This document shows, piece after piece, positions 44,896 through 62,648 of a stretch of DNA of 64,000 nucleotides (positions are counted from its first letter, which is position 1; every line of letters starts with the position of its first letter). Under the pieces are notes generated by a model. It saw only the letters and a list, made by a program, of their open reading frames with translations, made no database searches and was not told the DNA's origin. A program made the position numbers and the translations under genes. The DNA lies in contig JAJRSF010000007.1 of assembly GCA_024278935.1 (NCBI GenBank), forward strand, positions 1-64,000. The letters run 5' to 3'. The stretch is from Candidatus Zixiibacteriota bacterium (GTDB lineage Bacteria; Zixibacteria; MSB-5A5; GN15; FEB-12).

Positions 44896-46305
44896 CTATT
44901 CTAATTCTTCTTTAAATTCTTTGAGTAAGTTAAGGGCATCAAGTGGTGTCAAATTGTCTAGATCTATTTCTTTAATCTGTTTTTCGATTTCGGATTCTTT
45001 TTGGTCAAAAAGTGATGGTTGGATTTTTTCTTTATACAAGCCTTTGCCAAGTTCAGAGCTGTTAAATTTACCCGATTCAAGCAGTCGCAAAATATGATTT
45101 CCTCGAGAGATTACCGATCTTGGCACACCCGCGAGTTTGGCAACTTCGATACCATATGAGTCATCGCATCCGCCTTGAATAATCTGATGCAAAAAGATAA
45201 CTTTGTCTTCCCACTTTTTGACAGCGACTTGGAAATTATGTACATGGTCATAAATTTCTGACATTCCGGTCAGTTCATGATAATGGGTTGCAAAAATTGT
45301 CCGTGCTTTTATTTTGGCATTGATATGTTCAACTACTGCCCATGCAATTGAAAGCCCGTCAAAGGTCGAGGTTCCCCGTCCTACTTCATCAAGTAAGATC
45401 AGAGATTTTTTTGTACCATTATGTAAAATATTTGCAGTCTCAACCATCTCAACTAAGAAAGTTGACTGCCCACGAGCAAGATTATCTAAAGCACCAACAC
45501 GAGTGAAGACTCTATCGACCAGTCCAATGACTGCCGATGTTGCCGGGACAAACGAGCCGATTTGTGCAAGAATTACGATAAGTCCTATCTGGCGTAAGTA
45601 TGTTGATTTACCTGACATATTGGGGCCGGTCAAAATTTGAATCATATCGCCATCGCATGAAAGCTTTACATCGTTTGCCACAAAGGCTCCCGACGGAAGC
45701 ACCGCTTCGATTACAGGGTGACGTCCGGCAACAATATCAAGCCGTTCATCTTCATAAATTTCAGGTCGACAGTAATTGTATTGCACTGCTGATTCAGCAA
45801 GCGATGAGACAACATCTATCTCTGCGAGCAAGTCAGCACAATTTTTTATTTCACCAATATATTGATTTAAAAATTCTAACAATTCACCATAGAGCTGCTC
45901 TTCTACTTTAAAAATCTTTTCTTCGGCATTGGCAATCAACTCTTCACGGATTTTCATCTCATTGGTTATATACCGTTCCCCATTGACCAATGTCTGTTTA
46001 CGGATATAATCATCGGGAGCTTTTCCAACATGTGATTTAGAAATTTCTATGTAGTAGCCAAAAACTTTATTATAGCCAACTTTCAGATTTGGAATGCCTG
46101 TCCGTTCCCGTTCTTTCGCCTGAAGGGATGCGATAAACTGACGAGCATCTTTTATAGCATCGTTCATTCTGTCAAGTTCTTCTGAATGCCCGTACTTAAA
46201 TATTGAACCTTTATGAGAGACAAGCGGAGGATTCTCAATAAGAGCGTTCTCTATTTTATTGATAATATGCATTGAGTCAGGAATATAAGCCGAGAGGTTC
46301 ATCAA
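44896..46305 (-). pseudogene. mutS: MutS, C-terminal fragment (core, clamp and ATPase domains)
   Basis: Carries the MutS lever/clamp (KERERTGIPNLKVGYNKVFGYYIEIS) and the ABC-type ATPase with Walker A LTGPNMSGKSTYLRQIG, ALDNLARGQSTFLVEM, LILLDEVGRGTSTFDG and ATHYHEL. It is in frame with the preceding fragment (46312-47073): only a TAG at 46312-46314 and two codons separate them, reading SILKDAH-stop-PHLMNLS. Without readthrough this part has only a TTG/ATG start within a helix and cannot bind mismatches. Confidence 0.9.
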
Positions 46306-46311
46306 GTGCGG

Positions 46312-47073
46312 CTAATGAGCATCTTTGAGAATAGATTTAATCTGTGATGCAATCATTAAGCCATTGCTTATCGCTTTCATCTGCCTTGGGTTCAGTTTCC
46401 CAATACCAAGCCGACCCGATAATTTTTCTAAATCAGGAAGTGTCTTGGTTGTCTCGTATAACCGATAGGCAAGCTCACGATTTTTGACAAGTTCTGCAAC
46501 ACCAGTTAAGCGAAGTTCAATTTTAGTTTTGAGTTTAAACGGACGAATCAACGATTGCCGAAGGCGTCTTGCCCCCGAGGCAGTGTTACATTTGTTTATC
46601 ACAGAAAAAAGAGTATTCTCTTCGGTGGCATCGGAGCTGTTTTTTAAGAGTTCTAAATTCCGCACCGTGCTGTAATCAAGCTGCATAAATTCGTTATTAT
46701 CGTATTTTGAAATTTTATCAATATGTAAAAGTTTGTCACGGTAATTTTCTTTAAGATACCGAAAAATTGCTCCCGCCGCAGAAAGTGCCAGCTTATTTTT
46801 GGCTACTCCGAAACCTTCAAGAGTTGTCGTTCCAAAATGACGGTTTAAATCTGCTTCGGCATTTTTAGCATCAAAGTTCCATTCGCCAAAATCAGTTAAG
46901 CGACGTTCGATATTTCGAAGCCCTAAGCGTTCGACTAAGTCTTCTTTTTTCACGTCAGATGAAAAAAGAATTTCCGATGGTTCAAGCAGACGCATTTTTT
47001 CTAAAATTTCAAGTTGGTCTCCCTCATCACATATGAATGACCCTGTCGACAAATCAAGCGCCGCCATGCCCAT
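46312..47073 (-). pseudogene. mutS: MutS, middle fragment (connector and core domains)
   Basis: Begins [12 protein letters not shown], the normal start of the MutS connector domain, and runs through QLDYSTVRNLELLKN and TASGARRLRQSLIRPF to the core helices, stopping at a TAG at 46312. It is joined to the N-terminal fragment by a one-base frameshift in or beside the A6/GGG tract at 47069-47078: one added base restores [14 protein letters not shown]. Confidence 0.9.
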
Positions 47074-47507
47074 TTTTTATGACCATTTTCAAACATCGCC
47101 GCAAGACACATCGGAGCAGAATCTAGTTCGGGCGAGTCGATCGTTGCGGTACCGGGAGTGAGGATCTCTACAATGTCACGTTTGACAATCCCTTTGGCAG
47201 TCTTGGGGTCTTCGACTTGCTCGACAACTACAACTTTTTCACCGGCGGCAAGAAGTTTGGCGAGATATTTATCAGCCGAGTGGTAAGGCATACCCGCAAG
47301 AGGAATCGACCCTTCGGCACCAGATGACCGTGAGGTAAGCGTTATGCCTAAAATCGGTGCTGCCTTAACGGCATCATCACCGAACATTTCGTAAAAATCA
47401 CCCATACGAAAAAACAGAATCTTATCAGGGTGTTTATCTTTTACCGCATAAAATTGTTGCATAAGCGGTGTGATAGATCTTTGTTTCTTGGGTGTTGTTT
47501 CACTCAT
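47001..47507 (-). pseudogene. mutS: MutS, N-terminal fragment (mismatch-binding domain)
   Basis: Contains the mismatch-recognition domain with [15 protein letters not shown] (the Phe-x-Glu that probes mismatches, FYEMF), [10 protein letters not shown] and IPLAGMPYH. After ENGHKKW the frame shifts to AWRRLICRQ... and ends. The ATG overlaps the SPOR protein stop (ATGA), with the intact reading frame resumed at 47073. Confidence 0.9.
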
Positions 47508-50895: not shown

Positions 50896-51762
50896 TTATC
50901 TGAAACCGATTTTGTTTTGCTTAAAGAGTCCTAAATAGTCAGAAATAGTTGTAAATGTGAATTCCTGCAGAAGTTTTTCTACCTTATGAGTCAGAAGTTC
51001 GGATGAGCTATAAAGCCTGAAACTTTGTAGTTTTGACAATCCTTCGACTCGGGGAAGATTCGGATTTACTTCCCAAGGATGAATATAAAATATCGCCGGT
51101 TGTTTAGATTTATTAAGCGCCCGAATAACCATTTTAGAATACCAGAATGGAGAATGACGGAAATATCCGCCCCCTGCGACCGGCACATTTTTACCAAAGA
51201 GCGAATATGTAGTTGCCGGAAGTTCGATTAACTTCTTACCATTTTCAAATTGCATTTTAAAATCTCTACGGGGACCATCAGCCCATCCATAGATATCATG
51301 TTTTATCGGAAAGACCGAGCTGTCATATAAAAAGCCCAAATCGGAAAGTGCTTCAAACGCCCATGAGTTCAAATTATTTATTGACCAACTTGGTGCTCTA
51401 TACCCAAAAGGAGCATTCCCTATTGATTTTATAATTGAGTTGATTGCCATGTCGGTATCTTTTTTAAATTCATCTATTGTCAATGTATCTACCCGTCTGT
51501 GATAGAAACTATGGCAAGCTATTTCGTGACCGGCGTATGAAATCTCCTGAATTAATTCAGGATATTTCTCGGCAACCCAGCCCAAGACAAACCAAGTAGC
51601 TTTTACATTGTGTCTTTTTAGAAGTTCTAAAAGAATAAGAGAGTCATCAACGACTGTCGATTTAAGTTTTTCCCATTCTTTCTTGGTATATCTTTTAGAA
51701 AGAATTTCAACGACAAACCATTCTTCTAAATCGACAGAGAATATATTTTTAAATGAGGACAT
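50896..51762 (-). CDS. Polysaccharide deacetylase, exosortase-locus type (DUF3473 C-terminus)
   Basis: NodB-like carbohydrate esterase: SVDLEEWF (metal Asp), HEIACHSFYHR (metal His pair), FGYRAPSWSI, then a C-terminal part with PVAGGGYFRHSPFW and FYIHPWEVNPNLPR typical of the PEP-CTERM/exosortase-associated deacetylases. 288 aa, no signal peptide. Last gene of the exopolysaccharide unit; no exosortase or PEP-CTERM protein is visible here. Confidence 0.88.
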   Translation of the reverse strand: MSSFKNIFSVDLEEWFVVEILSKRYTKKEWEKLKSTVVDDSLILLELLKRHNVKATWFVLGWVAEKYPELIQEISYAGHEIACHSFYHRRVDTLTIDEFKKDTDMAINSIIKSIGNAPFGYRAPSWSINNLNSWAFEALSDLGFLYDSSVFPIKHDIYGWADGPRRDFKMQFENGKKLIELPATTYSLFGKNVPVAGGGYFRHSPFWYSKMVIRALNKSKQPAIFYIHPWEVNPNLPRVEGLSKLQSFRLYSSSELLTHKVEKLLQEFTFTTISDYLGLFKQNKIGFR

Positions 51763-51794
51763 CTCGGAGTTCCAATATCAATAAGAGTTGACTC

Positions 51795-52553
51795 TTATTT
51801 AATTTTTCGCGGTTGCATTTTATCAGGTCGGCTAATTGATTTTGCTGATTTTTTCCGATTATCTTTATATTCATATTGATAATATCCATAATCATAGTAG
51901 TATGGCAAAGAGTGATTCATATTATTAAAAGCGACACCGATTACGCTGTTCTGTCTTGGGTTAAGAATCTCGACAGCTCTTCGAACGACTTCTTTTTGGG
52001 TCGCCCCTGCTTTGACTACCAAAAGGGTTCCGTCGACTTTCGATGCAAGCAGCATCGGATCAGATACCGGCAACAACGGGGCAGCATCGATAAGAATCAA
52101 ATCATAATAAAATTTCAACTCATCAAAGAGAGTACCCATCGCATCGGCATCAAATACTTCAGACGGATTTTCGCAATATCCACCGGCAGTCAAAACATCA
52201 AGTTTATCAACCGATGTTGTCGAGATAGCATCTCGAGGATTGTAGCCCTCTACCAGAATTTCTTTGAGGCCTGCTTTGGGTTTTAATTGAAAGATTTTAT
52301 TGATAGTTGGTCTTCGAAGATCGGAGTCGATAATAAGCGTCTTCATCCCTTTTTTTAAGGCAGCTGTAATTGCCAAAAAAGAACAAATAGTTGATTTGCC
52401 TTCTGAGAGCATTGCCGATGTAAGCATGACTGTTTTAAGTTCGCCATTTGACCTGCCATCGTACATATTGTGCAGGAGCCTCCGAAACTCAGTGACATAT
52501 GGGGCTTCTATATCATAAAAATCTAAAATTGAACTATGTTTTTTAGGCGACAT
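51795..52553 (-). CDS. CpsD/CapB-type tyrosine autokinase
   Basis: BY-kinase cytoplasmic module: Walker A SAMLSEGKSTICSFLA, Walker A' LIIDSDLRRP, Walker B LILIDAAPLLPVSD. The C-terminus carries a Tyr cluster (PYYYDYGYYQYEYKDNRK) as in autophosphorylated CapB/Wzc tails. It should work with the separate Wzz/Wzc-type membrane protein at 53685-55184 to control chain length and export. 252 aa. Confidence 0.9.
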   Translation of the reverse strand: MSPKKHSSILDFYDIEAPYVTEFRRLLHNMYDGRSNGELKTVMLTSAMLSEGKSTICSFLAITAALKKGMKTLIIDSDLRRPTINKIFQLKPKAGLKEILVEGYNPRDAISTTSVDKLDVLTAGGYCENPSEVFDADAMGTLFDELKFYYDLILIDAAPLLPVSDPMLLASKVDGTLLVVKAGATQKEVVRRAVEILNPRQNSVIGVAFNNMNHSLPYYYDYGYYQYEYKDNRKKSAKSISRPDKMQPRKIK

Positions 52554-52565
52554 GCCATCAATTTC

Positions 52566-52955
52566 CTAATCTGTTATTTTCTTCATCACATGGTCAATAG
52601 CATCATAGACATGTTCTGCTTCTTTTATATGTTCTTTAATATGATCCATAGATGCGTTGATATTTAAAGTCTGTTTGTACTGCTCAATACCTTTTTGCCA
52701 ACTCATGCGTGCGTGGCTTAAATGACAACGAGCTAGTTCAGCGTAGTGGTCGACATAGGTCGGGTTTCTTTCAATTTCTTTTTCTAAAAACAAAATCCGT
52801 TCCATTACTGATTCTTCGGTAATCCAATTCGGATGCAAAACATATTTCATATAATACGCTGCAGATTTATTTCTGTTATGTTCTTTTTGAATTTCTCTTA
52901 CACGTTTCAAAAGTTGGAACGCTTCATTGATACTTTGTTCTTTCAGCACGGCCAA
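52566..52955 (-). CDS. Small TPR-like protein of the exopolysaccharide operon
   Basis: 129 aa, helical, with a single degenerate TPR unit (VDHYAELARCHLSHARMSWQKGIEQYKQTL). No signal peptide. The frame starts at a TTG overlapping the upstream stop by 13 nt (a GTG two codons on is also possible). Function unknown; its place between TPR and kinase genes suggests an adaptor. Confidence 0.6.
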   Translation of the reverse strand: MAVLKEQSINEAFQLLKRVREIQKEHNRNKSAAYYMKYVLHPNWITEESVMERILFLEKEIERNPTYVDHYAELARCHLSHARMSWQKGIEQYKQTLNINASMDHIKEHIKEAEHVYDAIDHVMKKITD

Positions 52956-53680
52956 TCCTTTTCAAAATCGGCTGTTTGGTATTCTTGATTGATAATTGCT
53001 GCTTTTGTAAAATGGTCGCGAGATTTTGTCATAAAGTCAGCAAAGAGTTCCGTCTCTTGTTTCGCAATAGCATCCATCAGAAGAGTCAGCCCGTGATGGA
53101 AGTACGCATCGCTGTAATACATATTGATATTAACAGCTCTCTTAAACTCAAGGACTGCTTTTTTGTACTGTCCGCATGAAAGGTATACTTCGCCTAAATT
53201 ATTTCGATAGTCAGCATAGTCAGGCTTTAGGTCTATAGCACTTTGAGCAGCTTGCAAGGCAGCGTCGATATTTCCTAATGAAAGTTCGACCTGCCCTAAA
53301 TAATTAAATGCTTCATGGTAGTCAGAGTTTATAACTATAGCCTGCTGCAGAAGGTTCTTTGCCTCGGAGAAAAAATGCTTGTAATAAAAAGCTAATGCGA
53401 GGTGATAAATTGTTTCCGGTTTGGCAGAGTCGAGCGTGTTTTTAATCGTACCAAGCAGAGTCTCTATTTCAATTTTTTTCTCACCATGAGTATTGTGTAC
53501 AAGTGCCATGATTTCTTCAGGCTTGATTCTTTCAGGATGTGGAAATTGTATTGAGTCTGCTAAGACACCATCTACAAATACTTCCGTAGATACAACCCCT
53601 GAACTGACATCATTTGATGTTTGGATAATATACTCTTTATGATTTTCTACAAGCTTGCTATTTAATTTGTACGTTTCCAT
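52943..53680 (-). CDS. TPR protein of the exopolysaccharide operon
   Basis: About 245 aa: an N-terminal region of unknown fold (METYKLNSKLVENHKEYIIQT), then TPRs (IYHLALAFYYKHFFSEAKNLL; AFNYLGQVELSLGNIDAALQAA; RNNLGEVYLSCGQYKKAVLEF; YFHHGLTLLMDAIA). The start at 53680 with GGTGAG upstream is preferred over a longer frame from 53710 that overlaps wzc. Many exosortase-type polysaccharide loci carry TPR proteins. Confidence 0.7.
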   Translation of the reverse strand: METYKLNSKLVENHKEYIIQTSNDVSSGVVSTEVFVDGVLADSIQFPHPERIKPEEIMALVHNTHGEKKIEIETLLGTIKNTLDSAKPETIYHLALAFYYKHFFSEAKNLLQQAIVINSDYHEAFNYLGQVELSLGNIDAALQAAQSAIDLKPDYADYRNNLGEVYLSCGQYKKAVLEFKRAVNINMYYSDAYFHHGLTLLMDAIAKQETELFADFMTKSRDHFTKAAIINQEYQTADFEKDWPC

Positions 53681-53684
53681 TATC

Positions 53685-55184
53685 TCACCGATGTAAATGA
53701 TATTTTTCAATTTTTGGTATAGTGGCTATGACCCGCACACCAAGCTCTTCTTCTATATCTTCGACTCTTTTAAATGAATTGTCTAACATTTCAAACAAAA
53801 AGACAAATCCGCCACCCAATGTAATTCCTAATACGATTCCAATAAGTATAATGTTCCGTTTGTTTGGCCAAAAAGGTACCAATGGGAGTTGGGCTGGTTC
53901 GACAACTTTATACCGTGTTCTTTCTTTTGCTCGTTCGGATAATATACCAACAGTTGTCTCTTCAGTTTTGAAAGCATCACGATATTTTCGGTAGTCTTCT
54001 ACTTGATTGACAAGTTCCTGAATCTCAGATTCTAACTTCGGAATCATATTAATACTGCTATTGATATTTCTGAGCGACTGATTTAATCTTCGTTTTTTCG
54101 AATTCAAAATATCCAACTGTTCCTGCACAATAAATTTTCTCACCAAGAGAGTTTTCTGATTCTCAGGATAGGTGCCATACTCTTTGTTAATAGAATTAGT
54201 AATCGTATTTTCTAAAAGCTGAGTATTGTCATTCAGTCGAATATTTATATTTATAATATTCTGATCATTCCATGTATATTTTTCCATCAGACTGGCATAG
54301 TTGGCAATTAAACCGTCGATTGTTGTTCGTAGCTCTATCAATGTATCTGAATATTTGAACTTAATTTTCTGGAGATTAAATTCTCTTATCTGGCTTTCTA
54401 ACCCATCTTTTTCTTTATTATAATCAGAAGTTTCCAAATCAATATTGTCTATTGTAGAAAGAATATCCAACCGATTACTTTCCGATGAGATATTTTCAGG
54501 AAGCTGCAGTTTAGACAAACGGACCCGTGCTTCATTTAACGAATCGATTGCTGATTGATAATATTGTTCCGTCTTCTCAAGTTGAATATCTGTAAAGCGT
54601 TGGTTGGCGAGAATCTTTTCCATTTCATCTTTAGTCTTTTCAGACTCAAGAATTATAGGGAGCTGTTTCGCAATATCTCTTGCGAGTAGTGCAGATTCAG
54701 ATTCAACTCGAATCTTAATTTGGTCAGAACCATGGAACGATACCGTAATCTGTTCACGTAATTTGTTAATCAATAAATCAAATTTGATTTGTTCCAGCGA
54801 AATTGTCGTGTTTGTCTCACGAAGTTTGGCTGCTTCACGAGAGATATCAGGGTCATCGTCAATATGTAAAATCTCTATCAGTTGGAACAAATAACCTTGC
54901 GAAGTTAGCTCCGCCTCGATAGCAAGGCGTCGGCTTCGTTGCTCTTCCCTGCTGACTCTTCTATTGTTACCACCTAGAATTCTCTCCATCTCAACAGAGA
55001 CATTTGATGGACGGTCTATCCATACGATAGTCGATGATTCATATTTTGGTGCGATAACATAGGTAGAACCATAGGCTATCCCGACCACAATAATCAACGG
55101 GACTATGATAAGCCATTTACGTTTTTTGAGGATTGTCAGAATTTCTCTGAGATCTAATGAATTTACCGGTTTCGGTTTTAGCAT
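53685..55184 (-). CDS. Wzz/Wzc-type chain-length determinant protein
   Basis: Inner-membrane protein with TM1 (WLIIVPLIIVVGIAYGSTYV, about 29-48) and TM2 (IILIGIVLGITLGGGFVFLFEML, about 444-466), separated by a long periplasmic coiled-coil region with a Wzz-like N-terminus (YESSTIVWID). After TM2 comes DNSFKRVEDIEEELGVRVIATIP, the usual Wzc linker, but no kinase domain; the kinase is separate at 51795-52553. 499 aa. Confidence 0.87.
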   Translation of the reverse strand: MLKPKPVNSLDLREILTILKKRKWLIIVPLIIVVGIAYGSTYVIAPKYESSTIVWIDRPSNVSVEMERILGGNNRRVSREEQRSRRLAIEAELTSQGYLFQLIEILHIDDDPDISREAAKLRETNTTISLEQIKFDLLINKLREQITVSFHGSDQIKIRVESESALLARDIAKQLPIILESEKTKDEMEKILANQRFTDIQLEKTEQYYQSAIDSLNEARVRLSKLQLPENISSESNRLDILSTIDNIDLETSDYNKEKDGLESQIREFNLQKIKFKYSDTLIELRTTIDGLIANYASLMEKYTWNDQNIININIRLNDNTQLLENTITNSINKEYGTYPENQKTLLVRKFIVQEQLDILNSKKRRLNQSLRNINSSINMIPKLESEIQELVNQVEDYRKYRDAFKTEETTVGILSERAKERTRYKVVEPAQLPLVPFWPNKRNIILIGIVLGITLGGGFVFLFEMLDNSFKRVEDIEEELGVRVIATIPKIEKYHLHR

Positions 55185-55186
55185 AA

Positions 55187-56170
55187 TTAACGATTATCCG
55201 TTGTTGTTTGGTCGTCGTTTATCTGGTTGTATACTAAAAGTGAAGATGTCAGTATACCGAGAATTGTTGCCGCTGTTCCGAGATCAACACCAAGGAATCC
55301 ACCTCGTTGTGCGACAGGCATAATAAAAGTATCTTCTTTTTTTAATATATATCTAGGGATATTTCCCGACTGGGAATACTTCTCTAAATTGATTTCCAAT
55401 GTTTGGGCATAGATACCATCTTTTGAAATGATCCGTACTTTTGTCAGATCCGCATTTTCTGTTGGACCTCCGGCAAGTGCTAAGGCATCTAAGATATCAA
55501 TATTTTTTTCAAATACTAAAGGACCCGGTGCATTCACAGCTCCGATAACATAGAATTGATTTCTGGCACCAATCTGTTGGGCAAATTCACCGGTTGGTAG
55601 GTTTGCCGATGTTCTCGGTATCTCAATTGTATCTTGTCTTCTTATTGACGGAAGTTTGTCAAGTGTACCACTTTCAATTGCTGCCGCAACATTGACAACT
55701 TCGATCTTCCCAGCATCGGCACCACCACGGATAATAGTCACTCGTGAGAGATCACCAAACTCGGTGATACCTCCACCTTCGTTGATGATTGTCCAAAGGT
55801 CAGGGATCCTTTCAAAGGTATGTTTACCCGATGTCAGTATCTGCCCTTTTAAAAAGATATGTTGATAGTTAAATTCTATCACCCGCACAACTACTTGAGA
55901 TATCCGTGCATTTAATCTAGACATCTGCCGAACGATATTGTTTTGTAGTTCGGTCGTAGTTTTTTCGGTCGCGGCAATTTCACCGATAATGTCGATAGTA
56001 ATCTGACCATTTTCGGAAACGCGCACGTTTGTATTTAAAGTCGCATCTTGCCAGAAGCGAATCTCTAAAATATCTCCTGCACCAATTTTATAATCCTGAG
56101 CATACAAAGATGCTTGAGATATAAACAAAAGAGCCAGAGCTATAAGTAAATAATTTGAAATCCTTTTCAT
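55187..56170 (-). CDS. Polysaccharide export protein, Wza-like (SLBB)
   Basis: Signal peptide (SNYLLIALALLFISQASLYAQ); Poly_export domain (YKIGAGDILEIRFWQDA...VSENGQITIDIIGEIAA), then two SLBB domains (FLKGQILTSGKHTFERI; FYVIGAVNAPGPLVFEKN). The C-terminus has a hydrophobic stretch (LGTAATILGILTSSLLVYNQI), a possible outer-membrane helix. Forms the outer-membrane channel for the polysaccharide. 3 nt upstream of the Wzz/Wzc gene. Confidence 0.9.
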   Translation of the reverse strand: MKRISNYLLIALALLFISQASLYAQDYKIGAGDILEIRFWQDATLNTNVRVSENGQITIDIIGEIAATEKTTTELQNNIVRQMSRLNARISQVVVRVIEFNYQHIFLKGQILTSGKHTFERIPDLWTIINEGGGITEFGDLSRVTIIRGGADAGKIEVVNVAAAIESGTLDKLPSIRRQDTIEIPRTSANLPTGEFAQQIGARNQFYVIGAVNAPGPLVFEKNIDILDALALAGGPTENADLTKVRIISKDGIYAQTLEINLEKYSQSGNIPRYILKKEDTFIMPVAQRGGFLGVDLGTAATILGILTSSLLVYNQINDDQTTTDNR

Positions 56171-56292: not shown

Positions 56293-57504
56293 TTACTCGG
56301 TTTTGATAGTTTCTGTAGCTAACAAAGCCTTGTTTCTGCCTGATTCTTTTGCTCTTAAGAGAGCCATATCAGCGGCATATATCAATTTTTTGCTATTATC
56401 AGCATGATCGGGGTAAACTGCAACACCCATCGAAATAGTACACGAGATAGATTTGTTTTCTTCCTCAAGTTTAAATGAACTATTTACAATCTTATTATGC
56501 AGTCGTTCAACAAATTTCATACATGTATCTTTATCAGATTCAGGCATGATAATACAGAACTCATCACCACCGTACCGAGCGACAACATCGATAGTCCGTA
56601 TAAACTTTTTAAGCATATAACCAATCTGCCTGATAACCTCATCACCTGCCTGATGTCCATAAGTGTCATTAATATTTTTTAATTCATCAATATCAAAAAT
56701 TATAAGTGCCAGTTTTCTGCCATACCTCTCAGAGCGATTCAACTCTTCATGAAGCCGTTTATAAAAATATCTACGGTTAGACAAAGTGGTTAGATTATCG
56801 GTGAATGAAAGTTCCTCAAGCAATTCCATCTCTTCTACATTTTCAAATATATCAACAAGATATTTTCGATAGAGATTTATTCTTTGGGAGATTTCAACAG
56901 CCTCACCTTTTTGCCTCCAGGCAAGGAGACCTTTTCTTCTATTAGAAAGAGGAAATGCTGCGATTCTATTGATAGAATTATTTTTTAATTCATTAATCCA
57001 GCTGTTATTTTCATTTGATTTCTTGGTCACTTCATCAAGACGTACCACAGTTTTAAAGTGTAGCATTTCTGTGAGATTGTGTAGATCAGAATTTTTAGGT
57101 GGTGCAAGTTTTGACGGTTGCTTGCCAGTAAACAAAAGTTCGGTAGAGTCATTATCTTTATTATCGTAAATAAAAATCAGGTCCTCTATTTGCGGAATTT
57201 CCTGAAGTGAATTTACAATCTGCGGGATAATAGCATCGGTCTTTTTACATTTCATAAATTGCAGCACACGTTCAACTTGACTATCTCCCTCTGTTACAGT
57301 CGTAGATATTTTACTACCTATCAATCGTTCCTGTAATTGTTCAAATTTGGATTCATGCCATTTAATATGATAGGCCGCTGCCAGTGATTGAGCTAACTGA
57401 GCAATGACAACACGAAAAGATTCAGAGTTTGTTCTTTTATTACTTTTAATTATATAAAAGCCATAGAGGTTATCTCTCCAAAAAACAGGAAAGAATTTAT
57501 CCAT
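56293..57504 (-). pseudogene. Diguanylate cyclase, GAF/GGDEF part
   Basis: A GAF-like region (about 60-225) and a GGDEF domain (about 240-395) with LTTLSNRRYF, DIDELKNINDTYGHQAGDEV, the inhibitory RxxD (RTID) and the catalytic YGGDEFCIIMPES. The ATG at 57504 is in frame with 57550-57933; only a TAA at 57550-57552 and 15 sense codons (PLLTEKFKDKVDAFK) separate them. The C-terminal enzyme could still be made alone if the internal ATG is used. It would make c-di-GMP close to the exopolysaccharide genes. Confidence 0.8.
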
Positions 57505-57549
57505 CTTAAAAGCGTCAACCTTATCTTTAAATTTTTCTGTTAGTAATGG

Positions 57550-57933
57550 TTACAAAAGAGATATGTCACGCGGGAAGAAATTTTCTTTTAATATTTTTTT
57601 TAATCCGGAAGAGTATTCGAGTCTAAAATCATTTCTATTAAATGACTTAATACCATGATAATAATTCAGCTCAAGCATCCCTCTTTTTTTACGAATGAAA
57701 ATTATATATTCACATCGGAATGTGTTTTTTAATATATCAGAAAAGAGTCTGGCAACAGCAGAGACTGACCCATCGAGAGAATTTCTATTCATAAATTCAG
57801 TCAATTCATGATTTGATAGATTTTGTAAGATTACCTCTTGCTTCTTTTCCTCTTTAATTCTGGTATACAATAAATATGTAAGTAAAGCAACAGATAAGAG
57901 AAGCAACAGTATCAATGACAATTCGACGGTCAT
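57550..57933 (-). pseudogene. Diguanylate cyclase, N-terminal part with membrane anchor
   Basis: 127 aa: one N-terminal TM helix (LSLILLLLLSVALLTYLLYT), a short helix and the start of a GAF-like fold (FRCEYIIFIRKKRGMLELNYYHG). It ends at a TAA after DISLL; the reading continues in frame as PLLTEKFKDKVDAFKMDKFF. Read together with 56293-57504 it gives a membrane-anchored GAF-GGDEF protein of about 545 residues. Confidence 0.75.
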
Positions 57934-58011
57934 ACTTTGTTTCCTCTGAAATTGATTATAGTGCGTCTATATAAAATATAATTGAAATAATGAAACTGTC
58001 AACTAAAACGA

Positions 58012-58362
58012 TTAGTAGAATTTACGTCCGTACCTAAACCGAGACCTTCCTCTGAGCAGATTATTTCGCCTAAGAACAGAGAAGATTTTCCACCAGCTTA
58101 CATCGATTAAATCACTTGCCAAATTGATTTCATATTTAATTTCCCCGATAGATGCAAATGGATCATTCTTAACGACTTTTAGCACGGCTGATTCTAAAGA
58201 ATCATGTTCTGAAATTTTTCTATCTTCAAATGTTGTAGTTGTTTTTTGAGCTGACTGTGGTGAAGCCGAAGCAACAGTAAGGTTAGTTATGACCTTTTTT
58301 TTTACTGTTGTCAGATGAAATCGTATCACCAAAATCTTCACGGGCATCTTCAAGAGATACAT
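58012..58362 (-). pseudogene. C-terminal extension of the STAS protein, shifted frame
   Basis: Reads VITNLTVASASPQSAQ, a Ser/Thr-rich linker, then a compact basic C-terminal domain (SLESAVLKVVKNDPFASIGEIKYEINL...SVLRRNNLLRGRSRFRYGRKF) that looks like a winged helix. The ATG at 58362 lies inside the STAS gene and has no ribosome site. Removing one A from the nine-A run at 58295-58303 joins it to the STAS domain. Confidence 0.6.
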
Positions 58363-58675
58363 ACGCTTTTAAAACATTATCAAACTCAAGCAGTTCATAT
58401 ATTTCAGCGACATTTTCAATCATATTGGCAAGTTTTAGATCACCGCCATTTTCATGTATGTCTTTGATATGAGAAATGAATATACCCCATCCGGCAGAAG
58501 AGATATATTCTACACCGGCTAAGTCGACAATCATTTTAAACCTATCTCTTTTTAAAAGAGACTCAATGACTTCTTCAAGCTCAGCAGCCGTAAGAGTGTC
58601 AATAACACCATCCACCCTGATTTCGGAGATTTCTTTTGATTCGTTTTCTTTTAAAGAAATTGAAATATTATCCAT
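58283..58675 (-). CDS. STAS-domain anti-sigma-factor antagonist
   Basis: 130 aa. STAS fold with DGVIDTLTAAELEEVIESLL, MIVDLAGVEYISSAGWGIF (phospho-acceptor Ser59/Ser60) and the AEIYELLEFDNV helix. Such proteins are phosphorylated by RsbW-type kinases and dephosphorylated by SpoIIE-type phosphatases, and the next gene upstream encodes both activities in one protein. It ends after an A9 run (DNSKKKGHN); a one-base slip would extend it by about 95 residues. Confidence 0.85.
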   Translation of the reverse strand: MDNISISLKENESKEISEIRVDGVIDTLTAAELEEVIESLLKRDRFKMIVDLAGVEYISSAGWGIFISHIKDIHENGGDLKLANMIENVAEIYELLEFDNVLKAYVSLEDAREDFGDTISSDNSKKKGHN

Positions 58676-58753
58676 TATCTGTTCCAGTAAGCATTTTACA
58701 GGATAAATATTTTCTCATGTTTTGGCAAGTAAATTCTTTATAAGACGGCTTGA

Positions 58754-60787
58754 TTAAGCCTTGTCGCTATTGATTTTTCTTACGAGTAATCTATTTTCAG
58801 ATTTTTGTTTTTCAATCGGCGTAGAAGATTTTATCTGCATGCGAGCCAAAATAAAACTTATATCATCGGTCGCTTTATTAAACCCGGTGTAGTCATCAAT
58901 AAGATCGATTAACTTTTCTGAAAGTGCCGACATTCTAATCTCTGAATCAGGTGCATGTGCCACTATGAATTCTTCAAGACGTTCAATGCCGAATTGGTCT
59001 CCCTCACGATTCGGAGCTTCGGTAATGCCATCGGTAAAGATTATAAAGCAGTCATCATCACACATCACCCGCCGCTCTTCGATAATAGAATCGGCAAACT
59101 TATTTTCATCTCTTGTCGGAAGCCCTACAGGCATACCTTTAGGGTTTAGCTGTTCGATTTTCTTTGTGTCAGAATTAAAATATACCATCGGGTTGTGACC
59201 GGCTGATACAAAGACTATTTCGTTTGTCTCTACATCATATATCTGCAGAAATACAGTGACAAACATACCCGGAGGAATATTTATTTTCATATAATCATTC
59301 ACGGCAACAATAATCTCTTTCGGAGATTGCAGTTGTCGACCATAAATCTGTATTACAGTCCGAAGCATCGACATCACAAGCGATGCCGGGACACCTTTGC
59401 CCGAGACATCAGCGACAACCATACAGTATCTTTTTTCAGATACTTGGAAAATATCATAGAGGTCTCCCCCAACCAATGATGCCGCCCTATAAAATGATTC
59501 TATATCCAAATTTTGAATTTCAGGAAGTTTGTTCGGAAGAAGTGTCTTTTGAATCTCTGATGCTACTTCGATTTCTTTAGCCATTTTTTCACGAGCCGCT
59601 ATATTTTTTCTATCCTGTGATAAACGTGTTATCATTTGATTAAATGCTTTTGAAATCTCAAAAAATTCTTCGGCACCTTCAAGCGGAAGTTCTGTTTCTA
59701 AGTCTCCCGAGGTAAACCGTCTGATACGATGCGTGATTTTCAAAATTGGACTTACAAAATAATCAGACAAAAGATAAATACCGATTATACCAAACAAGAG
59801 TAATATCATTGTTAAGATAACTATCTGGGTACGAGCATCGGCAAGCTGATAATAAATTCCTTCGGTGGTATATATAATATATACTTTGCCGATGAGATGA
59901 TCCCGAAGTTCGATAGGTATAACCAAAAACTCAACATCTTCATTACCTAACTCAAAAGTTTGCGGAGTATTATAAATATAGGCATTCAAACCTTGGGGTG
60001 CTTGGTATTGTTTTCTTATAAAGAGAATATCATCAGAATGAGCTCTGATCATTTTCGTTGCATCGGTTAAGACGATAAGCCTGAGTTCAGGGTTGGCACG
60101 TTTATAACTCACAAGTAATTCATCAAACTCAACATCGGACCTATTATTTATTAAGTACCCCGATGCTTGAGCCGCGATAGTAGTACCAAGTGCCTGTACA
60201 GTTTCATGCTTATGCCTGTACATACCATCGGAGATCTCATGATCAAAATAATAAATCGAGCCACCGATAATCATTGATACGATAATAAATGTCCAGACAG
60301 AAAACTTAAACCGAAGAGTGAGCATCCATCTTAAAAATGGTCTCCCCTTTTCTTTCTCTTTATGGATCCGTTTAATCATCCGAAGTTCGTTGAAAGCAGC
60401 TGTTGAGATATACTCAACAGAATCCATAATTTTCTGGATCATGTAAAAGCCAAGCCCACCTTTACGCCCTGATTCAACTAATTTATGTAAATCGACTTTA
60501 CCCGAGTTATCTGGCTGAAATGACCGACCATAATCAATAAGAGAAAAAACGACAAGCTTTTTGTAAATAACAATCCGTACCCGCATAAGACCTTTTTCAT
60601 ACAAGTAGGCATGGCGGATAATATTTGTTGCACCCTCTTCAATAGCAAGAAGCACCGAAGTAATTTCTTTTTTGTTCATCGACGCAGCTATACAGCTTTC
60701 CCTCACCGTCCGCTGAATACTATCTAAGTATTTTTCTTCGGCTTTAAACTCTGCGTTAATTTCTTTTATCGGTCGCCTAAACATCAC
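58754..60787 (-). CDS. Membrane sensor with RsbW-type kinase and SpoIIE-type phosphatase domains
   Basis: 677 aa. An N-terminal RsbW/SpoIIAB-like HATPase (1-145; LLAIEEGATNIIRHAY with the N-box, KGGLGFYMIQKIMD glycine box), TM1 about 162-182, a periplasmic domain to about 320, TM2 about 324-346, a HAMP region (345-400), and a PP2C/SpoIIE phosphatase (about 425-645; VGGDLYDIFQVS, VVADVSGKGVPASL, FTDGITEAPN). Opposing partner-switching activities in one membrane protein imply that an external signal sets the phosphorylation state of the downstream STAS protein. Confidence 0.85.
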   Translation of the reverse strand: MMFRRPIKEINAEFKAEEKYLDSIQRTVRESCIAASMNKKEITSVLLAIEEGATNIIRHAYLYEKGLMRVRIVIYKKLVVFSLIDYGRSFQPDNSGKVDLHKLVESGRKGGLGFYMIQKIMDSVEYISTAAFNELRMIKRIHKEKEKGRPFLRWMLTLRFKFSVWTFIIVSMIIGGSIYYFDHEISDGMYRHKHETVQALGTTIAAQASGYLINNRSDVEFDELLVSYKRANPELRLIVLTDATKMIRAHSDDILFIRKQYQAPQGLNAYIYNTPQTFELGNEDVEFLVIPIELRDHLIGKVYIIYTTEGIYYQLADARTQIVILTMILLLFGIIGIYLLSDYFVSPILKITHRIRRFTSGDLETELPLEGAEEFFEISKAFNQMITRLSQDRKNIAAREKMAKEIEVASEIQKTLLPNKLPEIQNLDIESFYRAASLVGGDLYDIFQVSEKRYCMVVADVSGKGVPASLVMSMLRTVIQIYGRQLQSPKEIIVAVNDYMKINIPPGMFVTVFLQIYDVETNEIVFVSAGHNPMVYFNSDTKKIEQLNPKGMPVGLPTRDENKFADSIIEERRVMCDDDCFIIFTDGITEAPNREGDQFGIERLEEFIVAHAPDSEIRMSALSEKLIDLIDDYTGFNKATDDISFILARMQIKSSTPIEKQKSENRLLVRKINSDKA

Positions 60788-60842: not shown

Positions 60843-62648
60843 TCAGAGTCTGAGCTTTGCCTGTTCGATATTATTTATCGTGTTAATATTATTCGGGTAG
60901 ACTTTCAAGACTTTTTCCCAGACATCGATAGCTTTTTGATATTCATTATTCCGCATAAATTTAAGACCACTTAAATATAAGTCCCAAATTTCTTTGTTTG
61001 CCTGTAAGTCTTCAAGAGTTGTTTCTTTTAAAGAAGTAGTATTAATCTTTTTCAAATATTCAATTGCGACAGGATTATTTCTATCAACAAGCAACACAGC
61101 TTCAAATGTTTTTTTAGACGATCTGAATTTGTTGTTTTTAAATAAATCCATTCCGGTATTTAGCTGTTGGGCAATATTTATGTTTTTAGAAATATTTGCA
61201 ATTGCTTCTAGGGCTGTTTTATTTTCAGGCTCAATATCTATAATTTTATGATAAGCAATAACAGCTTCAATATTGTTGCCATTTTTTTCAGCTTCTTTAG
61301 CTTTAGTAAAATTCTCTTTCAGTTCATTGGTAATGTCTCTGTTGATTCGCTTTTTCAGATTTATTGCTTCAGTATAATTTGGCGAAATATCAAAAATCAG
61401 TAAGAGCATATCTAAAGCTGCATTGTAATATTTTTTCTCATAGAAATTTTGAGCATGTGCTAAATATGTAATTCTGGTTGCTTCAACATCCTGATGATAC
61501 AGCAGATACTCCTGCTCTGTTTTCAATTGGATTGCAATAGAATTTTCAATAGCAGCAATAAGACCGACAATATCTGCATTATGTTCATCATATGCCAAGG
61601 CACGTTGATAATAAGCTAAAGCAGAATCCAGTTTAAATTCATGATGATAACCGACAGCCTTTGATTTATAAAATTCAAATTGTTTCAGACGTTCTTCTTC
61701 AAGCAATTCGGAACCTCTTGATTCCTGCCGTTTTTCTTCTGAAAGGATTTTATCTTGCAAAGATGACCCGATTAAAAACGAGAGAGAAAAGCGATGCGAA
61801 TCATTTATATTATCCATAACTTTGTAGGCATAGTCTAGTTTGATTCTATTGAGAGTCATACCAGTTCCGAAAGAAAGATTATCTTTGTCATAGCCCGCAC
61901 GAATTGCATAAGTTCTATTAAAAAGTAATTCGCCACCCAGATGCAGTTTAGCGTCTCGGTTTTCAATTTTTTCAATTTCTATAGCAGCATTTAATGTCGA
62001 GCTGGAATGTAGAGATAGATTTTTTAAACCAAGTCCACCGGCTATAGTAATCGGTGTTGTTTCGCTAATATTTGATAACTCTAGCTCCGGCGGAAGTATA
62101 TCTCTCAGAATCAGCCCACCTGTAATATGCTCAGAAAAATTTGCCGCAAATCCTAGGTCAAAGCCTAAGCCATAATCAGACAATGAATCCAGCGACTGAT
62201 TGACAATTTTAAAACTACTTCCGAATGAAAAATTATCACCTAATGACTGCCCATACGAAAAAAGTATCTGACTTTGCGAATATCCAAAGGTACCGTTTGA
62301 TAAAAAGTTCGATGTCCCTTTGATATCATCAGTACCAATTCGATAGATTGAAATGCCTACTCCGCCAAGTTTTGAATCAGGGAATACCCAACTGGCGTAG
62401 TTATATGATGTCCCCTCGAATAATTCTATATGCATAAACGAAATTTCTTGATAGTTCAAATATGGCAACCCTGCCGGATTGTAATAAACTGCCGAGGCGT
62501 CATCGGCTATCGATGTAAAAGCACCGCCCATGCCTAAAGCTCTTGCCGAGGCACCTATTGAGAATGGTGATTCCTGCCCTGCGTCGCCTGCTAAAATTGA
62601 TGAAACGAACAGACAGAATATGATGAAAATCAGTTTAATGGTTTTCAT
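60843..62648 (-). CDS. PorV/PorQ-like outer-membrane barrel fused to TPRs
   Basis: 601 aa. Signal peptide, then the PorV/UPF0164 N-terminal pattern SARALGMGGAFTSIADDASAVYYNPAGLPYL and a beta-barrel to about 290 with alternating strands. From about 315 the protein is helical, with TPR-like units (YKSKAVGYHHEFKLDSALAYYQRAL; FTKAKEAEKNGNNIEAVIAYHKII; YLSGLKFMRNNEYQKAIDVW). PorV proteins help surface delivery of T9SS-type cargo. The TAATG overlap with the upstream surface protein supports that link. Confidence 0.8.
   Translation of the reverse strand: MKTIKLIFIIFCLFVSSILAGDAGQESPFSIGASARALGMGGAFTSIADDASAVYYNPAGLPYLNYQEISFMHIELFEGTSYNYASWVFPDSKLGGVGISIYRIGTDDIKGTSNFLSNGTFGYSQSQILFSYGQSLGDNFSFGSSFKIVNQSLDSLSDYGLGFDLGFAANFSEHITGGLILRDILPPELELSNISETTPITIAGGLGLKNLSLHSSSTLNAAIEIEKIENRDAKLHLGGELLFNRTYAIRAGYDKDNLSFGTGMTLNRIKLDYAYKVMDNINDSHRFSLSFLIGSSLQDKILSEEKRQESRGSELLEEERLKQFEFYKSKAVGYHHEFKLDSALAYYQRALAYDEHNADIVGLIAAIENSIAIQLKTEQEYLLYHQDVEATRITYLAHAQNFYEKKYYNAALDMLLLIFDISPNYTEAINLKKRINRDITNELKENFTKAKEAEKNGNNIEAVIAYHKIIDIEPENKTALEAIANISKNINIAQQLNTGMDLFKNNKFRSSKKTFEAVLLVDRNNPVAIEYLKKINTTSLKETTLEDLQANKEIWDLYLSGLKFMRNNEYQKAIDVWEKVLKVYPNNINTINNIEQAKLRL

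Follow-up and report, generated by a model that had tools for sequence, protein, structure and literature searches.

A conserved adenine run links a STAS antagonist to an HTH-like tail, often out of frame, in Zixiibacteriota: a probable site of transcriptional slippage in a membrane partner switch

By what route does a partner switch whose gene block holds no sigma factor pass on its signal, and why is the antagonist of such a switch followed by a conserved coding tail that lies in another reading frame? These questions are raised by a locus in positions 1 to 64,000 of contig JAJRSF010000007.1 from a Candidatus Zixiibacteriota bacterium (this whole stretch is referred to below as the window). 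In this locus, the gene for SW, in which a kinase, a membrane sensor and a phosphatase are fused, stands beside a gene for a STAS protein, and the STAS open reading frame (ORF) is linked to an out-of-frame continuation (58012-58362; EXT) through a run of nine A residues (A9). The best explanation, which on the sequence evidence we consider probable, is that the locus encodes a partner switch of the membrane, adjoining a cluster for exopolysaccharide export, and that slippage on the A-run yields both a STAS protein and a STAS protein extended by a helix-turn-helix (HTH)-like domain (STAS-HTH).

The state of the STAS-tail junction differs between two groups of relatives. Outside the families labelled here f1 and f4, the tail is in frame with STAS in 45/45 genes with a detected tail (the gene of f6 is without one), and no A-run longer than 7 is present; judged from this single in-frame ORF, STAS is ancestrally fused to an HTH-like domain of ~70 residues. 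Within f1 and f4, which include the family of the window and span 35-66% GC, 60 genes could be read; the loci of genomes G008 (no detectable tail) and G089 (contig edge) were unreadable, and the divergent f4 STAS genes of G083 and G084 were left out of the analysis. All 60 readable genes carry a run of A9-A11 at the junction (51 A10, 8 A9 and 1 A11), and the frame of the tail relative to STAS, as assigned by profile search, is 0 in 24 of them, -1 in 32 and +1 in 4, the window belonging to the last kind. In a quick tree based on 105 joined proteins, where a single clade of f1 and f4 is not rejected by the test (this being no proof of such a clade), the tail frame has changed at least 17 times within the two families while the A-run was retained throughout, which is what an expression device indifferent to frame predicts. 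Further, the frame differs among genes that all have A10, and therefore it is set mostly outside the run. When the number of A residues was changed in silico, exactly one long phase was obtained for each of the 60 genes, with the other two phases stopping 1-25 codons past the run. Runs of A10 are rare, with 1-5 sites per f1/f4 genome scanned, and lysine codons in GC-rich genes favour AAG over AAA (52 vs 29); nine is the length at which counter-selection of A or T runs becomes evident in many bacteria (PMC1088944). An assembly or sequencing error as the source of the frame break was ruled out, because the run and the shifted frames are found in dozens of genomes, among them single-contig ones (e.g. 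G056, G058 and G060).

The tail itself is basic and conserved. Its ratio of nonsynonymous to synonymous substitutions (dN/dS) is 0.07-0.34 where measurable, many pairs being saturated, and this holds for tails in frame as well as out of frame; on these values the tail is under selection as a protein also when it is frame-shifted. An AlphaFold2 model of an in-frame homologue (mean predicted local distance difference test score, pLDDT, 83) consists of a STAS domain, a low-confidence linker just behind the position of the A-run, and a helical C-terminal domain; the tail of the window, modelled alone, gave a mean pLDDT of 79. The Pfam family HTH_Tnp_Tc3_2 was matched by 15 of 24 tail homologues (best value 4.9e-6). 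DNA binding by the tail is likely. The sequence-only reading of this DNA had already named the STAS extension as a possible output of the switch, which was right as a suggestion; what it missed was the HTH-like nature of the extension, the A9-A11 run and the out-of-frame state.

The partner-switch character of the locus is evident from both of its central proteins. The kinase domain of SW is intact in its N-box (E50, E51, N55), G1 (D85, G87) and G2 (G110-G113) motifs, and the phosphatase has aspartates D442, D445, D460, D586, D641 and D642; all of these columns are at least 97% conserved in 44 orthologues, and a near-full-length SW orthologue is present in most of 41 relatives. The sensor region shows a likeness to sCache_3_2 that lies under the Pfam family cut-off. 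The claim in the initial reading that an antagonistic kinase and phosphatase are housed in one membrane protein thus agrees with the Pfam architecture and the conserved motifs, and its observation that the block lacks a sigma factor is borne out by a search of the window with Sigma70_r2, which gave no match (the closest one along the contig lies at C4:84081). The STAS protein, which scores above the TIGR00377 cut-off, belongs to the anti-sigma antagonists, and the best PDB matches of its AlphaFold2 model, made for the in-frame homologue, are TM1442, SpoIIAA and RsbV. A STAS match was found in 109/132 genomes in a phylum-wide search, and the phospho-serine motif, YISSAG or YVSSAG, is present in 108/108 STAS genes examined; from alignment with Ser58 of SpoIIAA and Ser56 of RsbV, we take Ser60 to be the phospho-serine. 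Nor was a sigma factor seen next to the STAS gene. Two further STAS genes of the genome (on C23 and C64) adjoin HATPase and SpoIIE genes, as those of ordinary partner switches do.

The architecture, the synteny, the run, the three frames and the selection on the tail are read from the sequence; slippage, the binding of DNA and the partners of each form are inferred, as follows. An envelope signal would be sensed by SW and would set the phosphorylation of Ser60 in STAS, the HATPase domain phosphorylating and the SpoIIE domain dephosphorylating it under the control of the sensor and HAMP domain, as the intact catalytic residues and the domain order suggest. During transcription of the STAS gene, RNA polymerase would slip on the A9-A11 run and produce transcripts with differing numbers of A residues. 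If a transcript is in one of the reading phases, then STAS-HTH (~220-236 amino acids) would be made, and if it is in either of the other two, which stop a few codons past the run, then the product would be STAS only (~126-153 amino acids). STAS-HTH may then carry the signal to DNA, giving a transcriptional output in place of a sigma factor, and this fits with the absence of a sigma factor from the block. The short STAS, which would always be co-produced, may compete for SW or act on the neighbouring GAF-GGDEF cyclase.

The same kind of run recurs elsewhere. Many of the remaining A10 runs sit in homologous genes, and in coaBC and dnaX their location is fixed. Identities of these genes were assigned by profiles, with coaBC scoring over the TIGR00521 cut-off and the partial sequences of dnaX and mnmE falling below their full-length cut-offs. 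In coaBC (loci G000:C57:7353 (L231), L218, L220, L222, L239-L268 and L299-L312), A9-A10 is present at the CoaC-CoaB junction in 44 of the 48 f1/f4 genes sampled; CoaB is in frame in 33 of the 48 and shifted in 15, and production of full-length CoaBC from these 15 genes would need slippage. For dnaX (loci G000:C38:240341 (L228), L269-L298 and L319-L338), A9-A10 was found in 30/36 f1 genes and 0/6 f4 genes, and A9 also in f2, f3 and f10; some of the run-negative calls in coaBC (e.g. those of G022, G055 and G075) and dnaX may be search-window misses. The dnaX run is a likely gamma/tau slippage site, and slippage in dnaX may have come first, coaBC and STAS-HTH having acquired it afterwards. In G056, G060 and G022 (L217, L219 and L226), A10 also occurs, with frame differences, at the 5' end of mnmE, which follows directly on yidC. 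It is possible, and we propose it tentatively, that A10 serves this clade of Zixiibacteriota as a recoding signal for a few genes (dnaX, coaBC, STAS-HTH and perhaps mnmE), and that slippage would set the ratio of signalling STAS to STAS transcription factor, which may vary with conditions; a single gene would thereby feed both cyclic di-GMP (c-di-GMP) and transcription.

A slippery heptamer is present within the run in any phase and the tail lies in the -1 frame in 32/60 genes, both of which are in keeping with programmed -1 ribosomal frameshifting on A AAA AAA/G, by which the two products would be made as in E. coli dnaX. However, the tail is already in frame in 24 genes, another 4 would need +1 or -2 shifts, ten A residues are retained though seven would suffice, and of the stimulators neither a downstream RNA structure behind the run (mean z -0.06) nor an enrichment of Shine-Dalgarno (SD)-like sequences near it was found. 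Further, the genome encodes tRNA-Lys with anticodon TTT as well as CTT, and in Thermus, where dnaX uses slippage, the possession of two lysine tRNAs has been related to the use of transcriptional slippage (PMC5009743). Ribosomal frameshifting is for these reasons improbable. DNA polymerase, too, can slip on poly-A tracts, and the frames vary between species, so that the run could also be viewed as a contingency tract in which replication slippage toggles the HTH tail within a population; sequence alone leaves some room for replicational slippage (PMC1088944). However, the run length is tightly held, the frame varies among genes with one and the same A10, and the run also occurs in dnaX and coaBC, where a cell would probably not tolerate an off state, as both are housekeeping genes; we consider phase variation very improbable. 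Slippage is known to give all three phases, dnaX being the classic slippage gene (PMC1088944), and transcriptional slippage is favoured here over both of these processes because the run, the phases, the tree, the dN/dS values, the null results for RNA signals and the tRNAs point to it together.

Two other explanations concern the tail rather than the process acting on the run. If STAS and the tail were two overlapping and translationally coupled genes, then the run would be incidental; the tail ORF does overlap the STAS stop in the out-of-frame genomes, and ATG and GTG codons are present upstream in the tail ORF of the window. However, in at least six clear out-of-frame genomes, on which this argument rests (viz. 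G002, G003, G020, G024, G057 and G060), there is no ATG, GTG or TTG between the preceding in-frame stop and the DPF motif, no start position or SD sequence is conserved, and 24 f1/f4 genes as well as all 45 outgroup genes have the tail joined to STAS in one frame. A separate start for the tail was therefore rejected, and there is very little to commend two coupled genes as the explanation. A less remote, though still unlikely, explanation is that the only target of STAS is the GAF-GGDEF cyclase (as for SiaC or HsbA) or else the export apparatus, with the tail serving stability or localisation and not DNA-binding output. STAS partners of cyclases are already known, STAS-HTH adjoins GGDEF in f19 although SW is not adjacent there, and SW and the GGDEF protein are matched by the SiaA and SiaD equivalog models, respectively, in both cases under the cut-off (71.5 bits against 700 and 163 bits against 290). 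However, a tail that is conserved, basic and HTH-like speaks against such a restricted role, and a dual output, to the cyclase and to DNA, is possible.

Several observations weigh against slippage producing a DNA-binding STAS-HTH as the output of SW. The run of the window is A9 and not A10, and the window's own tail has no Pfam match; taken singly, the HTH matches are weak, and in Foldseek many of the hits of the tail belong to winged-helix regulators (MecI, FapR, LmrR and the Fur family), every one of them weak, with a best E value of 0.26. Initiation of the tail on its own from a rare start codon is formally conceivable. The STAS gene of G008 (f1, L044) ends at 121 codons without an A-run or a detectable tail, an apparent loss of the HTH part. 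Lastly, in three genomes of family f2, STAS-HTH is apart from SW and GGDEF, and in G031 (L195), the one of these that was read gene by gene, it lies directly behind an NtrC-like sigma-54 response regulator.

The features of the locus are listed in Table 1. The genes for SW, STAS-HTH, GAF-GGDEF, Wza, the Wzz-like protein, TPR and CapB keep their order within the taxonomic order and also, though less similar, in further families of the class, and across the phylum the conservation of gene order is far beyond chance. The sequence-only reading had named neighbours conserved no further than chance as evidence against it; they recur in order across the phylum, and the reading stands on this point. 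In f5, f9, f10, f15 and f16, a stretch of ~1.6-2 kb lies between SW and STAS, which in G114 holds a ParA-like ATPase. A PorV-like/TPR gene (60843-62648) is directly upstream of SW and is found there throughout the order and in much of the class. The export genes (50896-56170) look like the XrtA/PEP-CTERM exopolysaccharide type, the cut-off of an XrtA model being passed only by the deacetylase. A cyclase gene does adjoin STAS, as had been proposed, but the ORF 56293-57504 is only part of it: a lone TAA at 57550-57552 cuts the GAF-GGDEF gene in the genome of the window only. That a frameshift separates the GAF part from the GGDEF part was ruled out, as both are in one frame and the stop is confined to the window. 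Elsewhere in the window, mutS (44896-47507) is broken into three ORFs, one break being a frameshift close to 47.0 kb and the other a stop close to 46.31 kb; the mutS breaks and the lone GGDEF stop suggest consensus errors or recent gene damage.

Table 1. Positions in the window of the partner-switch, cyclase and export features, in the direction of reading
Feature	Position	Strand	Basis or remark
SW (fused RsbW-like kinase, membrane sensor, HAMP, SpoIIE phosphatase; 677 amino acids)	58754..60787	-	Pfam, conserved catalytic residues, orthologues
HATPase_c_2 kinase domain of SW, residues 14-139	60371..60748	-	Pfam E 1e-19 and genome search
HAMP domain of SW, residues 342-390	59618..59764	-	Pfam E 2.7e-9
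SpoIIE (PP2C) phosphatase domain of SW, residues 451-650	58838..59437	-	Pfam E 2.3e-40 and genome search
STAS antagonist, short (0-frame) product, 130 amino acids, expected phospho-Ser60 in YISSAG	58283..58675	-	Pfam/NCBIfam, structure match SpoIIAA/RsbV
A9 run at the STAS-HTH junction	58295..58303	-	A9-A11 in all readable f1 and f4 genes
C-terminal extension (EXT) of STAS, +1 frame ORF	58012..58362	-	No plausible separate start conserved
HTH-like domain, last 68 residues of EXT (DPF..I.E......WW..F..LR...L..RSRFRY)	58015..58218	-	AlphaFold2, Pfam, Foldseek
GAF-GGDEF N-terminal part (membrane helix and start of GAF)	57550..57933	-	One continuous ORF in nearly all relatives
GAF-GGDEF diguanylate cyclase, remainder	56293..57504	-	GGDEF E 3.2e-48
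Wza-like polysaccharide export protein	55187..56170	-	Poly_export and SLBB; conserved position
Wzz-like chain-length protein	53685..55184	-	Pfam Wzz; best NCBIfam pepcterm_ChnLen, below cut-off
TPR protein of export cluster	52943..53710	-	Pfam; conserved position
Second small TPR-like protein	52566..52955	-	Conserved position
CapB-like tyrosine autokinase	51795..52553	-	TIGR01007 above cut-off
XrtA-type polysaccharide deacetylase	50896..51762	-	TIGR03006 above cut-off

If slippage on the run is true, then recoding of the run to AAGAAGAAG should collapse the two products to one, and a partner switch without a sigma factor would reach transcription through the DNA-binding domain of the antagonist itself, a domain that is added to a fraction of the STAS molecules by slippage of RNA polymerase. 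The changing frame of the tail with a constant A-run would then constitute a natural experiment, and the annotation of such genes as split or broken, including that of the housekeeping gene coaBC, would be wrong.

The combination of a partner switch with a cyclase, which the earlier reading had not seen described as a unit, has known counterparts. Partner switches controlling a diguanylate cyclase include SiaABCD-SiaD, HsbA-HsbD and BgrV-BgrR (PMC8457831), and in SypE-SypA one kinase/phosphatase protein acts on a STAS protein and controls polysaccharide biofilm (PMC4517449). SiaABCD of Pseudomonas aeruginosa resembles the present system in that a SiaA phosphatase with HAMP, a SiaB kinase, the STAS-like SiaC and the cyclase SiaD are encoded in one operon that controls aggregation; however, its kinase and phosphatase are separate, SiaC is a DUF1987 protein and an HTH tail is lacking. 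SypE of Vibrio fischeri, similar to SW, has opposing kinase and phosphatase domains in one protein and a STAS serine as target, but SypE is a cytoplasmic response regulator whereas SW is a membrane sensor, and SypA is without a DNA-binding tail. The RsbU-RsbW-RsbV and SpoIIE-SpoIIAB-SpoIIAA systems of Bacillus share the kinase, the phosphatase and the STAS fold with its phospho-serine motif, whereas in them these are separate proteins and the output is a sigma factor. The partner switch and the cyclase half of the system are thus already known in kind, and the larger novelty is the STAS extension: in the open-access literature, no account was found of slippage with STAS, of a frameshifted anti-sigma antagonist, of an optional HTH domain on the antagonist of a partner switch or of coaBC slippage. 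For the slippage itself there are two known parallels. In Shigella mxiE, as proposed here, slippage yields a longer regulator product from a DNA frame that is broken; mxiE, however, involves neither STAS nor a partner switch, and it is not kept with changing frames throughout a phylum-level clade. The dnaX gene of Thermus thermophilus, with transcriptional slippage on A9, similarly has a coding A-run of 9-10, off frames that are soon closed and two products differing in their C-terminal part; in the present case, unlike dnaX, the gene concerned encodes a signalling antagonist, and often the DNA does not hold its long product in a single frame.

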